A stretch of DNA of 64,000 nt from Yaniella halotolerans DSM 15476 (GTDB taxonomy: Bacteria > Actinomycetota > Actinomycetes > Actinomycetales > Micrococcaceae). The stretch lies in assembly GCF_000420805.1 (NCBI RefSeq), contig NZ_ATVQ01000001.1:186001-250000 (forward strand), read 5' to 3'. The translations under genes and the position numbers were made by a program. The first letter of the stretch is position 1. Every line of letters starts with the position of its first letter. Positions 39,071 to 61,600 of the stretch are shown here, one piece after another. The notes beneath the pieces are model-generated. The model was given only the letters and a program-made list of their open reading frames with translations, was not told where the DNA came from and searched no databases.

Positions 39071-40168
39071 GTGACAATGGAAGCAATCAGAACCACCATG
39101 GCTCAGGTGGAAATTTCGCAGATGCTACAGACATGGATTGCAGACAATGCTCAGCGCATAGATTCCGGGGAAGTGAATGCACGTGAGGCGCTGCCACAAC
39201 TTGCAGACGAATTGCTTGTTGATATGGGAGCTCCACTCAATAAAGAGGGCGGGCTTGTAAAGCAGGCCGAGGTCTTAGCCTCACTGGCGCAGCGTTCGCT
39301 CAGTGTCCCCTTTGGGCTGTGGGGCCACCGCATGGTGATCGAGTTCCTCGAGCTGGCTGGTGGCATCTATGCGCAGTCGGTACTTCCCGGATTACGTGCG
39401 GGTACAACTCCAGGAGCTTCGGCGATGGCGCCTGGCTATAAGTCACTGGCCGGTGCTGGCGATCTCCATCTACGACTATCTGCGGGCGAGGGCGCAAAGC
39501 TGCGCCTATCAGGTCACATTGGTTGGGCTTCCAACCTCTATGAGGACGCCATCGTTGTTGCGCCCGCCTATGGCCCCAACGTCATCGACCGGCACGGCGT
39601 GCAGGGTGGTGTGATCGTCGCATTTGCACTCAATGCGCCCGGCATAGAGATCGGTCCACAGCTCGATATTTTGGCAATGCGAGGTACCGCTTCCACCTAT
39701 GTGACACTTCAGGATGTCGAAATCAGCACAGACCAGATCCTGACCCGTGACTTCTCCGCGTTCCTGCAACAAACCCGTCCAACACTGAGCATATTGCAGG
39801 CCAGCTTGTGTGTAGGCTTGGCCACCGCAGCCTATGAAAGCGCCCTGCACAATGCAACGGGTTTCAACGATGTCTTACTGGATGAAATCCAGGACCATGG
39901 CGACCAGTTGGCTTCAGCGAAACGGCAGCTGATACAGCTTGCCACGTACGTGGGTACAGACCAACCACCGCATCCCCGTGATGTCTTAGCACTACGGCTA
40001 CAAGCCGGGCAGCTTGCCGGAGCGCTGGCGACTTTGGAATTGAAGACCGCTGGCGGACAGGGCTTCGTGACGACCTCGGATACGAATCGTCGGTACCGCG
40101 AGGCAACGTTCATTCCCTTGCAAGCACCGTCCGAAGCACAGCTTCGCTGGGAACTGGCCCGAGCATAA
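39071..40168 (+). CDS. Acyl-CoA dehydrogenase-like flavoprotein
   Basis: A 365-residue protein with the helical-beta-helical architecture of acyl-CoA dehydrogenases: GYKSLAGAGDLHLRLSAGEGAKLRLSGHIGWASN for the FAD/substrate lid, LDILAMRGTASTYVTLQDVEIS, and a C-terminal YREATFIPLQAPSEAQLRWELA. The catalytic Glu of classical members is not evident, so it may be a monooxygenase-like or divergent member. GTG 39071 follows AGAAGAGG by five bases; the frame is open back to 38963 but that part is Ser-rich and unlikely coding. Confidence 0.75.
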   Translation: MTMEAIRTTMAQVEISQMLQTWIADNAQRIDSGEVNAREALPQLADELLVDMGAPLNKEGGLVKQAEVLASLAQRSLSVPFGLWGHRMVIEFLELAGGIYAQSVLPGLRAGTTPGASAMAPGYKSLAGAGDLHLRLSAGEGAKLRLSGHIGWASNLYEDAIVVAPAYGPNVIDRHGVQGGVIVAFALNAPGIEIGPQLDILAMRGTASTYVTLQDVEISTDQILTRDFSAFLQQTRPTLSILQASLCVGLATAAYESALHNATGFNDVLLDEIQDHGDQLASAKRQLIQLATYVGTDQPPHPRDVLALRLQAGQLAGALATLELKTAGGQGFVTTSDTNRRYREATFIPLQAPSEAQLRWELARA

Positions 40169-40170
40169 GA

Positions 40171-40207
40171 AAGCCCCTTCGCCACAAAACTTGGGACGAA
40201 GGGGCTT
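40171..40207. terminator. Bidirectional terminator
   Basis: A perfect 11-bp stem, AAGCCCCTTCG (40171-40181) with CGAAGGGGCTT (40197-40207). On the minus strand it is followed by TCTTAT, so it can serve the tRNA gene as well as the plus-strand gene. Confidence 0.8.
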
Positions 40208-40217
40208 GAGGTGTTCG

Positions 40218-40291
40218 TGCCTCCGATGGGACTCGAACCCATAACACAGCGATTTTAAGTCGCTTGCCTCTACCTATTGGGCCACGGAGGC
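40218..40291 (-). tRNA. tRNA with UAA anticodon (nominal tRNA-Leu) but a short variable loop
   Basis: A 74-base cloverleaf on the minus strand: acceptor GCCTCCG/CGGAGGC (7 perfect pairs), D-arm GCC...GGC with GG in the loop, anticodon stem AGCGA/TCGCT enclosing CTTAAAA (anticodon TAA, U33 present), variable loop GTGTT, T-arm ATGGG-TTCGAGT-CCCAT, discriminator A. CCA is not encoded. A UAA anticodon reads UUA (Leu), but tRNA-Leu normally has a long class II variable arm, which is absent here. See findings. Confidence 0.85.
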
Positions 40292-40364
40292 TGAATCGAA
40301 CATTACGAGTTTAGCGCATTTCCTACCATTGAGCACAAAATGCAAATCGCTCTGTTCGACCACG

Positions 40365-40417: not shown

Positions 40418-41824
40418 CTAGACATTTTGCGATGTTTTGGCTTCCAAGCTGGTTGGAATGCGTTCAAGACCTGCTGCTTCACGGAAAGCATTATGCGGGG
40501 TCTCAAGTTCTTTCAGCTGGGTGGTGTCTTTGCCCCAGATGAGTTCATTGATCCAACCACCGAGAACGCGTGAACTGCGCTCAAAGGTTGGCAGCGCGTA
40601 GTTGTGGTAAACACGGTGTCCCAACCAGGCAGCAACGCCAGACAGTTCGATACCCAGTGGGTTACCGACACCTTTACCAACACCCATGCCGGCAACAGTA
40701 CCGAGGGACTTGTGGTAGTACTCTTCAACGGCGCCTTCACCAAAACGTACAGCCATGAGGTTGTCTGCCAGACGAGTTGCCTGACGACCGGCATGCTGGG
40801 CGTTCGGTACGCAAAAGCCGCCTGGGCCATCACCGGTGAGGTCTGGAACGGCGGCGACGTCGCCACAAGCCCATGCGCCTTCGGCTACGCCACCTTCACC
40901 GTCAGAAACCTGCAGCGTTGGCGTGACTTCAATGCGGCCACGATCTTCTACCGGGAAGTCCGTCGAGCGTGCCAGTTTGTTGGCTGCCACACCGGCGGTC
41001 CACACCAAGGTATCGGCGTAGAACGAGCCAGCATCGGACTGGTCTGACATATTGACCAGCTTCATATGGTTGCCCACAGCCGAGGACAGTGAGGTGTTGA
41101 GCAGAACTTCGATGCCGCGTGACCGGAATTCCTCGACCACCGCTTCGGCTTGTTCTTCGGTCACCTCAGGCATGATGCGTCCCATGGCTTCGATCAGCAC
41201 AATGCGGGCGTCCGACTGAGCAAGACGTGGGTTCTTCGAGATTGCGGTGCGCACGAGGTCTTCGATTTCACCGATGAGTTCGGCACCTGCGAAGCCACCG
41301 CCTACTACCACGAAGGTCAGTGCACGGCGACGCTGGTCAGCGTCAGTCATCAGGGCTGCTGATTCGATCCGCTCCAGGATTTGGTTGCGCAAGTAAACAG
41401 CTTCTTCAATACGCTTGAGACCGATACCGGCTTCACCGAGGCCTTCAATTGGGAAGACGCGTGAATCGGCACCTGCGGTGACGATGACATCTTGGTACGG
41501 CAATTCGAAAGTGGCGCCTTCTGGGCCTTCAATGATCGCTGTTTTCTGAGCGTGCTGAATTTCAACGACCTTGCCCTGCACAACCTCCGACTGGCGCAGG
41601 TGACTGCGCAGGTCAACGACTGCGTGACGGCCCTCGATGGAGCCACCAACAACTTCTGGGAGGAAAGGCTGATAGGTCAGGTAGGAGTTTGGATCGACCA
41701 CGGTGACGATACCGCCGCGGTCGCGAATTTTCTTCTGGAGGCGCTTGGCGATGTTGTAACCGCCGTAACCACCGCCAACAACGAGGACGCGAGGTTTAGG
41801 AGATAGATGTGGAGTAATAGCCAT
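40418..41824 (-). CDS. ndh: Type II NADH dehydrogenase (NDH-2)
   Basis: Single-subunit, non-proton-pumping NADH:menaquinone oxidoreductase at the membrane face. Two dinucleotide-binding folds: VLVVGGGYGGYNIAKRL (FAD, N-terminus) and LTFVVVGGGFAGAELIGEI (NADH). AWACGDVAAVPD and the C-terminal amphipathic region (GVAAWLGHRVYHNYALP) complete the NDH-2 pattern. ATG 41824 with AAGGTGG upstream; a GTG at 41833 overlaps that site. 468 residues. Confidence 0.93.
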   Translation of the reverse strand: MAITPHLSPKPRVLVVGGGYGGYNIAKRLQKKIRDRGGIVTVVDPNSYLTYQPFLPEVVGGSIEGRHAVVDLRSHLRQSEVVQGKVVEIQHAQKTAIIEGPEGATFELPYQDVIVTAGADSRVFPIEGLGEAGIGLKRIEEAVYLRNQILERIESAALMTDADQRRRALTFVVVGGGFAGAELIGEIEDLVRTAISKNPRLAQSDARIVLIEAMGRIMPEVTEEQAEAVVEEFRSRGIEVLLNTSLSSAVGNHMKLVNMSDQSDAGSFYADTLVWTAGVAANKLARSTDFPVEDRGRIEVTPTLQVSDGEGGVAEGAWACGDVAAVPDLTGDGPGGFCVPNAQHAGRQATRLADNLMAVRFGEGAVEEYYHKSLGTVAGMGVGKGVGNPLGIELSGVAAWLGHRVYHNYALPTFERSSRVLGGWINELIWGKDTTQLKELETPHNAFREAAGLERIPTSLEAKTSQNV

Positions 41825-41874
41825 AGGCACCACCTTAGTAGGGTCGGATCAAGTTTGTGAAGTTTTTACCAAAG

Positions 41875-43218
41875 TCACGAGTCGGTCTGTTGACCAGTTC
41901 GTTTTTGACGGAGGAATATGGCGGCCGCGATGGCCGCGAACACCAGCACACCAAAGCCAATGACGACGATTGGCTGCACAATATTCGTCTCGTCTGGTTG
42001 GTCTGCGGCGACCGGCGGTTCGCTTGGGTACTCGACCGGGCCGGCGACTTCCCGATCCTCGTCAGAACCGCTAGTATCTTCGATTTCACCGCGACGGTGC
42101 ATCGTGATCCACTCTTGGATGGATCCCATGGGATTGGCATTGGTCTGTTCAACGTCGGCCGTCAATGCCTCGTGGGCGTCGACGATACCGCGACCATAGA
42201 GCTTGTCTTGGCCTGCATCACCGGTATCTTCTGCGGTGGAAAGAATGCGATTGATGACTTGGTGGGCAGACATATCGGGATTCTCAGCACGGATGAGTGC
42301 AGCAAGTCCCGAAACTAATGGAGCAGCTCCCGAGGTCCCCGACCATTCGGCGTATTCGTCACCGGGAACGGCCCCGATCAGCGGATCTGCGGGCGCGGCG
42401 ACACCGATGGTAATACCTTGAGTCGAAGCATCCCAGGAGGCGGTCCCGTCTTCGTCAAGGCCGGCTACGGTCAGCACGCCAGGGATCGTCGCTGGCGCAC
42501 CAACCACATCAGAGCCGGATGCCCGGTTGCCGGCGGCAACTACCACCACTACGTCGTTTTGCTCAGCGTGGAGAAAGGCGTCATCCCAGGATTCTGGCCA
42601 GTCTTGTTCGGTGGATGCCAGGGAAATATTGATGACGTCGACGCCCTGGTCCACAAGCCAGGTCACCCCGTCGGCAATTTGCTCGTCGACGGAGGGAACA
42701 TCTTCCACGGTGTCGTCCAACAGGACCGAAACAGACAGCAGTTCAACTTCTGGTGCGGTGCCTAGAATTCCATCGGTGCCGTATTCATCAATGGGGGCGA
42801 GTTCTTCTGGTTCCTCGGAGGCTTCATCATCCGATTCCTCGTCAGATTCGTCGCCTTCAGAATCTTCGTCGTCTTCGGTTTCGGGAGGATCACCGTGGCC
42901 GTGTCCAGCAATCAGTGAGGCAACCATGGTGCCGTGATTCGGGTCCGGGCCCATGGATGTGGTGCCGTCGGCCTCTCCGGTGCCGGATGCGTCATAGCCT
43001 CCGGCAACCTGTCCTGTGAGGTCCTGATGTGAATCGTCAATGCCGGTATCAATGACGCCAACGGTCACGTCTTCACCGCGTGAAGTCTCCCACGCAGTGG
43101 TAAAGCCGTAGTCGTCCAACCAGTACTGTTCGTCGCGCCAGGAGTCTGCAACGGCGGGGGTGGCAAGTAGCGTGGTCAGCGCAATACCGGTCAACCCAGC
43201 AAGTGCCTTTTTGTACAT
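41875..43218 (-). CDS. Secreted, membrane-anchored subtilisin-like serine protease (S8) with acidic insertion
   Basis: Signal peptide (MYKKALAGLTGIALTTLLATPAVADS), catalytic Asp57 in GVIDTGID, His95 in DPNHGTMVAS, oxyanion Asn231 in AAGNRA and Ser296 in SGTSGAAP. A C-terminal helix (IVQPIVVIGFGVLVFAAIAAAIFL) and basic tail anchor it, as in mycosins. Residues ~112-140 form an insertion made almost wholly of Asp, Glu and Ser. No type VII secretion genes are nearby, so it is not assigned to an ESX system. GAGGTAAC just upstream of the ATG, 2 bp after the Ppx gene. Confidence 0.9.
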   Translation of the reverse strand: MYKKALAGLTGIALTTLLATPAVADSWRDEQYWLDDYGFTTAWETSRGEDVTVGVIDTGIDDSHQDLTGQVAGGYDASGTGEADGTTSMGPDPNHGTMVASLIAGHGHGDPPETEDDEDSEGDESDEESDDEASEEPEELAPIDEYGTDGILGTAPEVELLSVSVLLDDTVEDVPSVDEQIADGVTWLVDQGVDVINISLASTEQDWPESWDDAFLHAEQNDVVVVVAAGNRASGSDVVGAPATIPGVLTVAGLDEDGTASWDASTQGITIGVAAPADPLIGAVPGDEYAEWSGTSGAAPLVSGLAALIRAENPDMSAHQVINRILSTAEDTGDAGQDKLYGRGIVDAHEALTADVEQTNANPMGSIQEWITMHRRGEIEDTSGSDEDREVAGPVEYPSEPPVAADQPDETNIVQPIVVIGFGVLVFAAIAAAIFLRQKRTGQQTDS

Positions 43219-43220
43219 CG

Positions 43221-44813
43221 TTACCTCAGCAGTGACAGGGCGATGCCGTCCAGAATGTCTTTCTCACTGGTGATTGCCGTTGTCACGGTGTTGTTTGTGG
43301 CTGTGCGGATATGGTCCAGCAGCTGGGCCCAGATGACGGCTCCTGCACCGATGACGTCGATGCGACCTTCATGCATGAAGCCATACTGGCTACGCTCGGT
43401 GGTGGTTTCACCGATGAGTTGCTGAGCAGTCTCGGCCAGCTGTTCGATGTCGATTTCTACGCCGTGGATGGCTTCGGGATCATAGCTTTCAAGCCCGAGT
43501 GCTGCCGCGGTGATCGTGGTGATCGTGCCCGCCACACCCACAACGGCATCGAGGTTCGTGAAATCGAATTCATCCGGTGCCAGCTCAGCCAGTCGCTGTG
43601 TCAGATCATTTTGGGCCGCTGTGATCTGTTGTTGGGTTGGCGGGTCATCAAATTGGTACCGTTCGTGAAAGCGCACACAGCCAACGTCCATTGAAGTCTG
43701 CGCGGTAATCTGTGCGGTACCATCGCCCGGATCGATGGTTCCCAAGACGATTTCGGTAGATCCGCCCCCGAGGTCTACGACGGCTACTCGAACGGGGCGG
43801 TCCCAGCTCGAAGTATCCAGCGCGGACGCAGCACCAGAGAAAGTCAGTTGAGCTTCAACTTCACCGCTGACGACTTCGGGAGTCGCATGGAGGCGTTGGC
43901 GGATACCAGAAACAAACTCATCACGGTTTGAAACGTCCCGGGACGCCGATGTGGCGATAAAGCGGGTGGGGTGAGCGCCATGCCGGGTGATTTCACGAGC
44001 ATACTCATCCACCGCAGCAAAAGTGCGTTCCAGTGCTTCCGGTGCGAATTCACCGGTTTCGTCGACACCTTGGCCAAGGCGCACAATACGCATATCCCGG
44101 TGGAGCTCTTCAATGCCCTCCTTGGTTTCGCGTGCAATCAGGAGGCGAATCGAGTTTGTGCCAGCATCAATGGCCGCAACTGGGCCGGTACCAGCCTCGT
44201 CATACTGGATGGGGTTGGTTTTCCCTGCCCTACGCAGACGACGCGTGTGCCGTGACAGGTCTTTTTGTGGAGCGTCACCTTCGATGTTCCAGGCACCCTC
44301 GCAACGGCAGACCGTCGGATCAAATTCATCACGCATCATAGCGAGAGCTTCGTCGCCCAGCGGGTTCGCTCCAGGCCCTTCGGCCAGGGCATGGCCAACA
44401 AGTACGTGCACACATTTCACACGTTCCGGCATGCCACCAGCGGTGATCCCGGCAATTTCTGGGACTGGTCCAACGCCGGCGGCTTCGCCGACCCGAGCGC
44501 GTGCGGATAAGTACTGTTCATGAGCAGAGCGGTACGCCTGTGCAAGTTCTGCGTCGTCGGCCAGCCGTTGTGTCATATCGTCCATCACTCCGGCGTTTTC
44601 CAACCGAGATGCAGCTGCGGTGGCGTGCGGGTGGGACAGATAAAACGTGGTCGGAAACGGTATCCCATTGCTCAGTCTGGGAGCGGTGGTGGCTACCAAC
44701 GGATTACCACAGACACAGCGAGCACCGATTTCAGCGACATCACGAACGGGGCGCCCGAGTTGCCTCGATAAGGTATCAAGATCTTGGGCGGTTGGTTGTT
44801 TCTGGTTGGTCAC
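43221..44813 (-). CDS. DUF501-Ppx/GppA phosphatase fusion
   Basis: One 530-codon frame holds two families that are normally separate neighbouring genes in actinobacteria (Rv1025 and Rv1026 type). Residues ~9-190 are DUF501 with paired cysteines (RCVCGNP, TVCRCEG) and SRQLGRPVRDVAEI. From ~211 comes the exopolyphosphatase/pppGpp phosphatase domain: VAAIDAGTNSIRLLI, FIATSASRDVSNRDEF, VVDLGGGSTEIVLG, GVAGTITTITA. The linker is basic (HTRRLRRAGKTN). GTG start. Lies directly after ftsB, as in other actinobacteria. Confidence 0.9.
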   Translation of the reverse strand: MTNQKQPTAQDLDTLSRQLGRPVRDVAEIGARCVCGNPLVATTAPRLSNGIPFPTTFYLSHPHATAAASRLENAGVMDDMTQRLADDAELAQAYRSAHEQYLSARARVGEAAGVGPVPEIAGITAGGMPERVKCVHVLVGHALAEGPGANPLGDEALAMMRDEFDPTVCRCEGAWNIEGDAPQKDLSRHTRRLRRAGKTNPIQYDEAGTGPVAAIDAGTNSIRLLIARETKEGIEELHRDMRIVRLGQGVDETGEFAPEALERTFAAVDEYAREITRHGAHPTRFIATSASRDVSNRDEFVSGIRQRLHATPEVVSGEVEAQLTFSGAASALDTSSWDRPVRVAVVDLGGGSTEIVLGTIDPGDGTAQITAQTSMDVGCVRFHERYQFDDPPTQQQITAAQNDLTQRLAELAPDEFDFTNLDAVVGVAGTITTITAAALGLESYDPEAIHGVEIDIEQLAETAQQLIGETTTERSQYGFMHEGRIDVIGAGAVIWAQLLDHIRTATNNTVTTAITSEKDILDGIALSLLR

Positions 44814-44822
44814 GTGTTTCCT

Positions 44823-45560
44823 TTATTCCTGACCGGATGACAGGACTGAACCCCAGAGGCGGTCTGCCCAGCCCTTCTCAACGTCTTCATCGAGCGGAGC
44901 AATCCCTGGTTCGGTTTCCGCTAGTTTGTCTTCTTCTTGTTCATCATCGAGCACCAGGTACTTCCGCTCCCCCGGCATCACCATGTTGAAGCGTTCTCTG
45001 GCCTGCTGTTGCACAAAAGCAGGATCATTCCAGCGCTTTAGTTCGGTCTCGAGTTCTTCCTGGCGTTCTGTTTCTTGTTTCAACTGCTGCTGAGCGTGTG
45101 TGATATCAGCCTGCTGCTCTAGTAACAGTTGCAGGGGTTGTGCCATGATGAGCGCGGCAATAAACAGCACTGCGAGCAGCGCCACGGCACGTCCTGAAAA
45201 TTGGCGAGCCGGTTCGGGGCGATCTTCGAATGATTCAGCCCGGTCGGCTCGATCCCAAATATCGTCATCGATCCGTTTGGTCTTGCGCTGCTTTGATGTG
45301 CTCTTCGTATTTTTCGACGAAGCTAGCAGTCGTTCACGCATTTTAGAGCGCGGCGCAGGTTGTATTCTTTCGTCAGTTTCTGGCTCTGGTGTGCGTTCCC
45401 GTTTCCCCGGCTTCTTTTCCGGGTCAGTCCCGGCATTAATTTTGGTGACGGATGCGGGTTTATCAATGATGACTGCCTCGTCCGCGGCGTCTTCTTCTGG
45501 CGTGTTCTCCGCGGGTTGTTCCGGCGGCACATTTTTTGGCATGCGCGGTTTCTTCGGCAC
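44823..45560 (-). CDS. ftsB: FtsB/DivIC-type septum formation initiator
   Basis: A 245-residue bitopic division protein: long charged cytoplasmic N-terminus (~125 residues), one helix (VALLAVLFIAALIMAQPLQLLL), then an extracytoplasmic leucine-zipper coiled coil (EQQADITHAQQQLKQETERQEELETELKRW) and ARERFNMVMPGERKYLVL, the DivIC hallmark. Partners would be FtsL/FtsQ at the septum. GTG 45560 has GGGAGGTGA upstream. Gene order eno-ftsB-DUF501-ppx is the conserved actinobacterial arrangement. Confidence 0.9.
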   Translation of the reverse strand: MPKKPRMPKNVPPEQPAENTPEEDAADEAVIIDKPASVTKINAGTDPEKKPGKRERTPEPETDERIQPAPRSKMRERLLASSKNTKSTSKQRKTKRIDDDIWDRADRAESFEDRPEPARQFSGRAVALLAVLFIAALIMAQPLQLLLEQQADITHAQQQLKQETERQEELETELKRWNDPAFVQQQARERFNMVMPGERKYLVLDDEQEEDKLAETEPGIAPLDEDVEKGWADRLWGSVLSSGQE

Positions 45561-45690
45561 CGTATCGTCACCTCCCAGCAGCTGGTTGCAGTCTAACTAG
45601 TGTAGTCGCCACCGAGGCGATTCAGCTGGCTCCAACACCGTATGTGCCAGGTATTCTCAGTCAGCGTTCAGAATTGCTATGTGTTCTTAA

Positions 45691-45739
45691 CAGACCGACA
45701 CCGCGTCTGGAGGTTTTCCAGCCGCGGTGTCAGGGTCTG
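45691..45739 (-). terminator. Hairpin after eno
   Basis: Nested stems: GACACCGCG (45697-45705) with CGCGGTGTC (45723-45731), with outer CAGACC/GGTCTG pairing, 7 bp downstream of the eno stop. Confidence 0.65.
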
Positions 45740-45745
45740 GACGTC

Positions 45746-47083
<1,338 letters not shown>

Positions 47084-59104: not shown

Positions 59105-60718
59105 CTAACGGTTGTGAGTAGGACGGGTTGTAGTCGGTTGCAGTGGTGTTGCCAGCGGTCCGGTTGAGGTGTCATCACGCAGCCGCTTGATAATGTTTTC
59201 TGCCGAAATTAAACACATTGGTAGTCCGACGCCGGGTGCTGTGGTCGCCCCGGCAAAGTACAAGCCATCAATATGTCGTGACGCGTTGGAACCGCGGAAG
59301 AACGCAGACTGCGCCAGGGTGTGAGCCAACCCCAATGCGTTGCCTTGCCAGGCGTTGAAGCGTTCTTGAAAATCTCCGGGACCTACCGTGTGGCGAGCGA
59401 CAATGCGTTGTGCCAGGTCATCCACGCCGATACGTTGGGCAATCAGGTCAATGGCTGCATCCACGATGGCCGTGGTGTCTGGATCTTCGTCGTGGTTGAG
59501 ACTGCCGACGATCCCATCTTTGGTGGCCTGTACAGGGATAAGGACGAAGACGTTTTCGTGTCCTTCCGGCGCCACGCTCGGATCGGTCGCACTGGAACGG
59601 CACACGTACAGCGATTCCGAGTATGCACCTGGGTCGTGCTGCGCGGTGCGAGATGACAGCTTCGGGAAGACCGCCTCGAAGTCTGGATCCCAATCCTGGC
59701 TGAAGAATAACGAGTGGTGGGCTAGCTGCGGTAGGTCGCCTTCAACTCCGAGGTACGCCAGCACGCAACTGAGGCCCGGGTTTCTGCGCCGCCAGTACTT
59801 CGGCCTGGCCGAACGGGGATCTGACACCAGTTGTGTTTCGGTGTGGTGCCGGTCTGCACCGGATACCACAACGTCAGCGGCCAGATAGTGCTCACCGGTG
59901 TCATCACGGTATGTGACACCGTTGACCCGTTGTGGCTTGCCGGCGTCGTGATGAATCTCTTCGACCGTTGCGCTGGTATGAATTCGCACTCCAGCGTTAA
60001 CCGCGAGCCGGCGCAAGGAATCAATGAAGGTTGCGAAACCGCCCATTGGGTAGGCAACCCCTTCAACCAAAGTCGTGTAGTTCATAATCCCGTAGAACGC
60101 GGGGGTGATTTTCGGTGCGGAGGATAAAAATACTGCCGCATACGTGAGGAGTTGTCGCAGCTGAGTGTGGTCGAACTGGGCCGCTACATCAGCATCGAGC
60201 GACCGAGTAAATTTGCGTGCCAATCGGCCGAGTCGCCGCATGATTTGGGCGGAGGTCAGTCCCCGCAGCTCTGTGAAGTTTGTGTATAAGAACCGCTCGA
60301 TGGACAACCGGTAATCCGTTTCCATACCTGCCAGGTAGCGCTCGACCTCGGCACCGGCACCAGGTTCTAACTGGTCAAACAGCTCGATAACATTCTGTGC
60401 CCCCGTGGAGACATCGAGAGGCTGATACCCCTCGGTAAAGACTCGGAAGGCGGGCTCATTGAGCTGTACAAGGTCGAGTTCGGCCTCGACCGACGTCCCC
60501 ATCAGCTCATAGAAATGTTCGAATGCGCTGGGCATCAACCACCAGGACGGCCCCATATCCCAGCGGAAACTGTCGTCCTTGAGGACTCCGGCTCGACCGC
60601 CAACATCATCTTGTTTCTCTAAGACGGTCACGTCGTACCCGTCTTTGGCCAGTAGGCCTGCGGTGGCTAGTCCGGCAACACCGGCTCCAATCACCACCGC
60701 GGACGTTGTGTGTGTCAT
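59105..60718 (-). CDS. crtI: Phytoene desaturase (CrtI type)
   Basis: A 537-residue FAD enzyme that converts phytoene to lycopene in four steps. N-terminal VVIGAGVAGLATAGLLAKDGYDVTVLEKQDDVGGRAG, FRWDMGPSWWLMP, YPMGGFATFIDSLRRLA, and the C-terminal carotenoid-desaturase signature DGLYFAGATTAPGVGLPMCLISAENIIKRL. Three bases separate it from crtB; 12 bp from crtYc. Confidence 0.94.
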   Translation of the reverse strand: MTHTTSAVVIGAGVAGLATAGLLAKDGYDVTVLEKQDDVGGRAGVLKDDSFRWDMGPSWWLMPSAFEHFYELMGTSVEAELDLVQLNEPAFRVFTEGYQPLDVSTGAQNVIELFDQLEPGAGAEVERYLAGMETDYRLSIERFLYTNFTELRGLTSAQIMRRLGRLARKFTRSLDADVAAQFDHTQLRQLLTYAAVFLSSAPKITPAFYGIMNYTTLVEGVAYPMGGFATFIDSLRRLAVNAGVRIHTSATVEEIHHDAGKPQRVNGVTYRDDTGEHYLAADVVVSGADRHHTETQLVSDPRSARPKYWRRRNPGLSCVLAYLGVEGDLPQLAHHSLFFSQDWDPDFEAVFPKLSSRTAQHDPGAYSESLYVCRSSATDPSVAPEGHENVFVLIPVQATKDGIVGSLNHDEDPDTTAIVDAAIDLIAQRIGVDDLAQRIVARHTVGPGDFQERFNAWQGNALGLAHTLAQSAFFRGSNASRHIDGLYFAGATTAPGVGLPMCLISAENIIKRLRDDTSTGPLATPLQPTTTRPTHNR

Positions 60719-60721
60719 GAA

Positions 60722-61600
60722 CTATTTCTTCTTCAACAAGTTGGCGGATACGGTTTGCGCTGCAATGGCGAGTTTTCGTGCATTCTTGACGCGTACCCGG
60801 CGTGTCAACAGTTCCGCGGCGGGGCGGTGCTCCAGTGCGTCAGTGAGTTCGCTAAATAATCGGTGGGCCATCTCCACACCGATGCGGGCCCGACGATCGA
60901 GTTTTTTCATACCGGGTTCAGCTGCGGCAAGGTCGGCTCGAATCTCATCGACCAGGCGTTGTTTCCGGGCCTCACCAAAATTCGCCGGATCGACGCCCGG
61001 GAAATAGGATCGGCCCAGCCCCTGGTAATCGGTCGCTAGATCCCGCAAAAAGTTCACTTTTTGGAATGCTGCACCGAGCCGTCGCGCTGACGCCGAGAGA
61101 AGTTCATCGTACTGGGTATCGGTCCCGGGCATGTGGCGAAATACCTCCAGACACATCAGCCCTACCACTTCGGCAGAACCATAGATATAGTCTTCTAGAC
61201 TTTCGGCCGTGTGTTTTTGACGGTACAAATCGGCCCGCATGGATCGAAAGAACGGCCGCGTCAGCTGGGTGGTAATACCGTGGTGCTGGGCAGTGGTCGC
61301 AAAGGCATGCACCACCAGATTTGTGCTGTACCCGGTGGCAATGGCGGTTTCTGTTTGTGCTTCGAGTCCTTCAAGTTCGGTTGCGATAGTCTGGTGATCC
61401 AGGCCTGCTTCTTCTGCGACGCCGTCGACAATTTCATCGGCCAGTCTGACTAAGGCGTAGATGTTGTCGATGTCGCGGCGTGCCGCTCTACCGAGAAATC
61501 GGCGGGCTAGTCCAAATGAGGTGGAATACGCGTCAATGACTTTACCTGAGCTTGAAATGGCTGCTTCGGTGTACAGGTGCAGTGCAGTGCGGTGTTTCAT
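60722..61600 (-). CDS. crtB: Phytoene synthase
   Basis: A 292-residue head-to-head prenyl condensing enzyme: two GGPP to phytoene. The two Asp-rich motifs are LVRLADEIVDG (about residue 50) and FLRDLATDYQGLGRSYFPG (about 185); YIYGSAEVVGLMCLEVF is also conserved. Its ATG directly abuts the crtE stop codon, showing tight coupling. Confidence 0.94.
   Translation of the reverse strand: MKHRTALHLYTEAAISSSGKVIDAYSTSFGLARRFLGRAARRDIDNIYALVRLADEIVDGVAEEAGLDHQTIATELEGLEAQTETAIATGYSTNLVVHAFATTAQHHGITTQLTRPFFRSMRADLYRQKHTAESLEDYIYGSAEVVGLMCLEVFRHMPGTDTQYDELLSASARRLGAAFQKVNFLRDLATDYQGLGRSYFPGVDPANFGEARKQRLVDEIRADLAAAEPGMKKLDRRARIGVEMAHRLFSELTDALEHRPAAELLTRRVRVKNARKLAIAAQTVSANLLKKK

Follow-up and report, generated by a model that had tools for sequence, protein, structure and literature searches.

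The window analysed here, a stretch of 64 kb from the genome of Yaniella halotolerans, contains a tRNA gene with the leucine anticodon UAA and a variable loop that is too short for a bacterial leucine tRNA, which raises the question of what this tRNA does at UUA codons. A 2023 review places the long variable arm in tRNA-Leu everywhere except in animal mitochondria, and tRNA-Leu is listed under class II in a review on non-canonical tRNAs (PMC7609411, in part). A preliminary description of the locus suggested that such a tRNA could be poorly charged, charged by another synthetase, or a regulatory or decoding oddity at UUA. Our results do not support these suggestions. It is instead highly probable that the gene encodes a genuine and functional tRNA-Leu(UAA), probably the only one of the organism, which would be charged by a single LeuRS and take the place of a class II gene. 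The case is built on sequence data, namely the structure of the tRNA, the failure to find another UAA tRNA, leucine at UUA sites, retained identity determinants and a complementary distribution of the two classes. Judged by these data, the gene is a counter-example to the long-arm rule of the 2023 review, and the preliminary observation, most likely of a working class I tRNA-Leu(UAA), was right and more general than thought.

Table 1. Position of the tRNA gene and of neighbouring features in the window.
Feature	Coordinates	Strand	Evidence and remarks
tRNA-Leu(UAA), class I	40218..40291	minus	ARAGORN, Rfam RF00005, comparison with the tRNAs of the genome
Hairpin, probable intrinsic terminator	40171..40207	minus	RNA fold; starts 10 nt past the tRNA
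TGCGCTAAACTC, possible -10 region of the tRNA promoter	40307..40318	minus	Ends 15 nt before the tRNA
Pyridine nucleotide-disulphide oxidoreductase ORF ("ndh" in the preliminary description)	40418-41833	minus	Pfam PF07992, E 7.3e-39; outside the tRNA unit
Gene order: oxidoreductase, mycosin-like S8 protease, DUF501 + Ppx/GppA (one frame), DivIC-like, enolase	40418-47026	minus	
Carotenoid-type genes: crtI family, squalene/phytoene synthase	59105-61600	minus	

ARAGORN places a tRNA-Leu(taa) at c[40217,40291], the lone tRNA gene within the window, and the full RF00005 model matches from 40291 to 40218 on the minus strand, scoring 62.6 bits where the gathering score is 29. With E = 3.4e-11, this match is not a chance event. 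Read directly, the gene is intact and 74 nt long, with an acceptor stem GCCTCCG/CGGAGGC, discriminator A73, the D segment TGGCCCAATAGGTAGAGGCA, an anticodon arm AGCGA-CTTAAAA-TCGCT that holds UAA in a 7-nt loop with U33, a variable loop GTGTT of 5 nt, and a T arm ATGGG-TTCGAGT-CCCAT. The 74 bases, anticodon loop, variable loop and A73 of the preliminary description were thus confirmed. Class II tRNAs are defined by a variable region of at least 10 nt (PMC7609411, in part), so the 5 nt found here place the tRNA outside that class, and it is right that a leucine anticodon on a class I body goes against the textbook. In the Rfam alignment, three pairs of the D arm are standard and one is not; in our own reading the latter would be C13:A22, in the style of class II leucine tRNAs. 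In the minimum-free-energy fold alone the D arm is absent and the anticodon arm only partial, and the cloverleaf is therefore taken from the covariance model and from conservation. CCA is not encoded, unlike in some relatives. As it is also not encoded in other tRNAs of the genome, its absence says nothing about pseudogene status. A sequencing or assembly error was considered and rejected, as the genes are 97-100% identical in seven other genomes of the genus.

The genome (2.78 Mb in 6 contigs, rated 100% complete) yielded 47 RF00005 matches, and reading all of them gave 43 distinct tRNA sequences. The window gene is the only one among the 43 with a UAA anticodon, and the search for a normal class II tRNA-Leu(UAA), proposed in the preliminary description, found no second UAA gene of either class among the 47 matches. 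With six contigs, a class II gene hidden in a gap remains a slight possibility, even though the assembly is rated complete. The two marks of a pseudo-tRNA, i.e., a degraded fold and redundancy with a normal isoacceptor, are both missing, as the RF00005 match is full-length and no other UAA tRNA was found. The leucine isoacceptors CAA, CAG, GAG and UAG are all class II and measure 83-87 nt as printed; together with four serine tRNAs and one tyrosine tRNA they make up the nine tRNAs of the genome above 80 nt. One frame exceeds the cut-off of the LeuRS model NCBIfam TIGR00396, with 981.9 bits. A second LeuRS was set aside, since the remaining TIGR00396 matches lie below the cut-off and look like other synthetases.

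The tRNA could also be of another isotype (e.g., lysine) with a switched anticodon, charged by another synthetase and placing that amino acid at UUA. We find this very unlikely, even though the body of the tRNA is 73.1% identical to Lys(CTT) of the same genome and 74.6% identical to its Leu(CAA); with values so nearly equal, descent from a leucine tRNA is left undecided. The residues found at UUA sites in homologues speak against this explanation. As the preliminary description stated, genes in the window use UUA, which makes up 121 of 1846 leucine codons in ORFs that were picked mechanically and may include some that are not genes. A tRNA-Leu(UAA) therefore has work to do. Two genes were chosen for a test of UUA, one of the crtI family (NCBIfam TIGR02734 above its cut-off) and purK (PDB matches). 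A search of 39 genomes of the order, including that of Y. halotolerans, returned loci from which 25 (crtI) and 29 (purK) homologues passed the identity limits. At the 8 UUA codons of these genes, the aligned homologue residue is leucine in 65.7% of 207 cells, compared with 59.8% of 1930 cells at their other leucine codons. Leucine is the commonest homologue residue at each of the 8 sites, and at codon 14 of purK it is found in 29 of 29 homologues. The homologues write these sites with leucine codons other than UUA in 135 of the 207 cells and with UUA in one, which means that the test is not circular. Taken as indirect evidence, this indicates that UUA is decoded as leucine in Y. halotolerans. 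The PDB comparison gave matches for purK and ilvA of the window and, at the limits applied, none for two window proteins rich in UUA codons.

The identity determinants point in the same direction. For E. coli LeuRS, PMC9976931 reports that A73 matters and that the anticodon and the long arm do not, and lists A15:U48, G18G19 and A20a among the leucine elements. The window tRNA has U8, A14, A15:U48, G18G19, A20a and A73, although A20a is read loosely, on the strength of the 20-nt D segment. Both poor charging and charging by another synthetase are disfavoured by these retained elements together with the indifference of E. coli LeuRS to the long arm (PMC9976931, in part). Across three chromosomal sets of class I tRNA-Leu(UAA), A73 is kept in 30/30, 27/27 and 120/120 members and A15:U48 in 30/30, 26/27 and 118/120. 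The pair is not strictly kept in phages, as only 81 of 121 members of the viral set with AGAGGC in the D segment have it and 27 have G:C instead. U8 and A14 were each read in 109 of these 121 tRNAs, which is likely an understatement because some sequences are probably off by one through a base added by ARAGORN. Ala(TGC), Lys(CTT) and Gln(TTG) of the genome likewise attain the loose count of six determinants, which is thus not leucine-specific by itself. The combination of A15:U48 with a 20-nt D segment, however, occurs only in the five leucine tRNAs among the 43. This, the leucine at UUA sites and the lack of another UAA tRNA in the genome all argue against a switched isotype, as does the presence of the class I form in many genera.

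In the family, 134 of 149 genomes (Y. halotolerans included) gave a BLAST match at E <= 0.01 and 15 did not; some of the 134 matches are probably other tRNAs. A tRNA-Leu(taa), with a printed ARAGORN length of 75-78 nt, is present in each of the best 30 family loci. Four patterns were run over the same 296 genomes sampled from the phylum and gave 61 with class I, 140 with class II, none seen with both and 95 that the patterns did not assign, where the class was judged by eye according to how long the matched stretch was. If the two classes were independent, both would be expected in 28.9 of the 296 genomes, with kinship ignored, against the zero seen. From the first pattern table, G402, G150, G429 and one of two rows of G245 were dropped as not being tRNA, the first two because ARAGORN printed no tRNA at the loci and the others by eye; G179 was reassigned to class II. 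In the later tables, G163 and one of two G346 rows were dropped (anticodon AAG by eye), as was a G245 row. The preliminary description had named class I leucine tRNAs being common in the clade as an outcome that would speak against an anomaly, and in substance this is what the 61 genomes and the 30 family loci show.

Four families (f18, f9, f16 and f47) have class I in some species and class II in others. In f18, where 16 genomes have class I and 5 have class II, three genera contain both kinds in different species. Mixed classes within families, and in f18 within genera, suggest repeated gene replacement or loss of the arm. Among named genome contigs, at least 119 stretches match the class I pattern, and ARAGORN sees a class I tRNA-Leu(taa) in each. 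Based on titles and taxonomy, we take 72 of the 80 stretches with titles to be Actinomycetota, with Mycobacterium, Nocardia, Gordonia, Corynebacterium, Microbacterium and Arthrobacter among the titles. The other eight are presumably two Planctomycetota, Rokuibacteriota, Chloroflexaceae, Deltaproteobacteria, Cylindrospermum, Acidobacteria and one of no clear group. Two of the stretches outside Actinomycetota, from Cylindrospermum NIES-4074 and a Chloroflexaceae MAG, each have 26 tRNA genes in 8 kb, including the class I tRNA-Leu(UAA). Sets such as these were selected by pattern and are no measure of frequency.

The same tRNA form is frequent in phages. BLAST with the window tRNA found matches in 13 phage records, and the four that were examined (Myxococcus phage Mx1, Bacillus phage P59, Vibrio phage phiKT1024 and Enterobacter phage KKP_3711) hold a tRNA-Leu with a class I body, AGAGGC in the D segment and a UAA anticodon, like the window gene. 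These four genes sit on phage genomes, with further tRNA genes in three of the four stretches, and the records are silent on their structure. At least 120 viral contigs match the class I pattern, and ARAGORN reads 121 short Leu(taa) among the matches listed. Short leucine tRNAs with other anticodons also occur in the listed viral contigs (CAA 11, UAG 11, GAG 3, CAG 1). In L122, L124, L134, L164, L170, L175, L233, L237 and other viral contigs, short non-UAA leucine tRNAs sometimes number several per stretch, and some leucine tRNAs are class II. A second pattern, with a D stem of class II type and a short variable loop, was found in 49 viral contigs (L241-L289), 48 of which read tRNA-Leu(taa) of 73-79 nt. 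The D stem of this second type is AGACGC, in the manner of class II, and its variable loop measures 5-8 nt; the arm was perhaps lost independently here.

A tree was built with the anticodon and variable region removed; it is weak, being midpoint-rooted and resting on about 70 columns and a random subset of the loci from viral and genome contigs. In it, chromosomal and phage class I tRNAs group together (54 tips, support 0.94) with other class I tRNAs outside, and the second phage type falls partly with class II Leu(UAA) (23 tips, 12 and 11, support 0.96). These groupings hint at two or more losses of the arm and at movement of the main class I lineage between phages and chromosomes. Both the intermingling in this tree and the frequency of the form in phages would fit a recent extra copy from a phage or plasmid instead of a chromosomal housekeeping gene. 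Such an origin is nevertheless improbable to a high degree, as the gene stands alone in the window, no second UAA tRNA was found, and all 30 best-matching Micrococcaceae loci (L046-L075, including that of the window) have an oxidoreductase homologue no more than about 1.5 kb from the tRNA. An ancient replacement from a phage is possible.

The tRNA starts 126 nt downstream of the stop codon of the oxidoreductase ORF, for which no NCBIfam model was above its cut-off. Further out, Ppx homologues were seen in 50 and S8 homologues in 29 of the 119 genome-contig loci (within 8 kb around the class I tRNA), and the location is thus partly conserved across genera. Upstream of the tRNA, TGCGCTA[AC]ACTC is present in all eight loci of the genus (L046-L053, where L048 is that of the window) and in none of the 22 other Micrococcaceae loci (L054-L075). 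Downstream, the end of the 3' arm of the hairpin and the following TCTTAT are T-rich, and the RNA fold of 40165-40213 has -24.7 kcal/mol (z = -5.83), with 0 of 200 shuffles equally stable. In the five other loci of the genus with the 3' flank at hand, a hairpin was seen by eye at the equivalent place in three (L046, L049 and L051) and was not evident in two (L050 and L052). Least likely of all is a pseudogene, decoy or regulatory tRNA-like RNA outside ordinary translation, for even though the gene breaks the class II rule and consensus scans around it found no promoter or terminator, it scores 62.6 bits with RF00005, is the only UAA tRNA found, has the upstream element shared by its genus and a stable downstream hairpin, and has intact relatives in many genera.

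For a working class I tRNA-Leu(UAA), we infer charging, expression and history as follows. The tRNA would be transcribed between the oxidoreductase gene and the terminator hairpin. Judging from the retained determinants, the single canonical LeuRS would attach leucine by recognising A73 and A14, the tertiary pair A15:U48 and the D loop with G18G19 and A20a, and the charged tRNA would then read UUA. The compact class I form, widespread in Actinomycetota and phages, would stand in for the class II gene, and loss of the long arm would be tolerated because a LeuRS of E. coli type does not read it.

The tRNA of Streptomyces bldA is class II, and the window tRNA would resemble such class II tRNA-Leu(UAA) in its anticodon and in reading UUA. 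With the class II leucine tRNAs compared, it shares the loop CTTAAA, A73 and the 20-nt D segment, but its D stem is GCC/GGC instead of GCG/CGC, and the variable regions of the class II leucine tRNAs of the genome are 13-17 nt. Another parallel is the animal mitochondrial tRNA-Leu(UUR), the human one being leucylated via A73 and A14 without a long arm (PMC9976931, in part). The mitochondrial tRNA belongs to another lineage, however, and the present gene is a chromosomal bacterial one in a genome whose other leucine tRNAs are class II. A leucine anticodon with a short variable loop has also been reported in an actinobacterium, as tRNA-Leu(TAG) of the Mmuc/Mpho mycobacterial tRNA gene cluster, which is thought to be horizontally acquired and for which the authors find a phage origin plausible (PMC6582537, in part). 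That gene is supernumerary, sitting in a cluster next to a normal TAG tRNA with a long loop, in contrast to the lone window tRNA, the only UAA tRNA found. A 2024 paper on a tRNA toxin of M. tuberculosis attributes a long variable loop to tRNA-Leu-2, 3 and 5; this would fit short-arm forms among the others, though it does not say that they are short (PMC11541572). In the open-licence PMC literature searched, we found no description of a class I tRNA-Leu(UAA) in bacteria. Such genes are public, as phage records and ARAGORN name them without remark, and the structural exception seems to have been little noticed.

We tentatively propose, while regarding it as rather less than an even prospect, that class I tRNA-Leu(UAA) forms a lineage of its own, common to phages and Actinomycetota, and has repeatedly taken the place of the class II gene, perhaps via phage transfer, so that UUA is read by a structurally distinct leucine tRNA and the statement that bacterial tRNA-Leu is always class II is wrong. 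If this is true, factors that read the long arm, such as toxins, nucleases and modification enzymes, would treat the UUA-reading tRNA differently from the other leucine tRNAs. Records of Mycobacterium, Corynebacterium, Nocardia and Arthrobacter are among the Actinomycetota that break the long-arm rule for the UAA isoacceptor. A needed tRNA could be misjudged where models or filters insist on a long arm. Additionally, a UAA isoacceptor without the arm beside other leucine tRNAs with it is a natural experiment on what LeuRS needs. The finding also bears on UUA decoding, which in Streptomyces acts as a developmental switch through bldA, the tRNA-Leu(UAA) of that genus (PMC4932002, in part).
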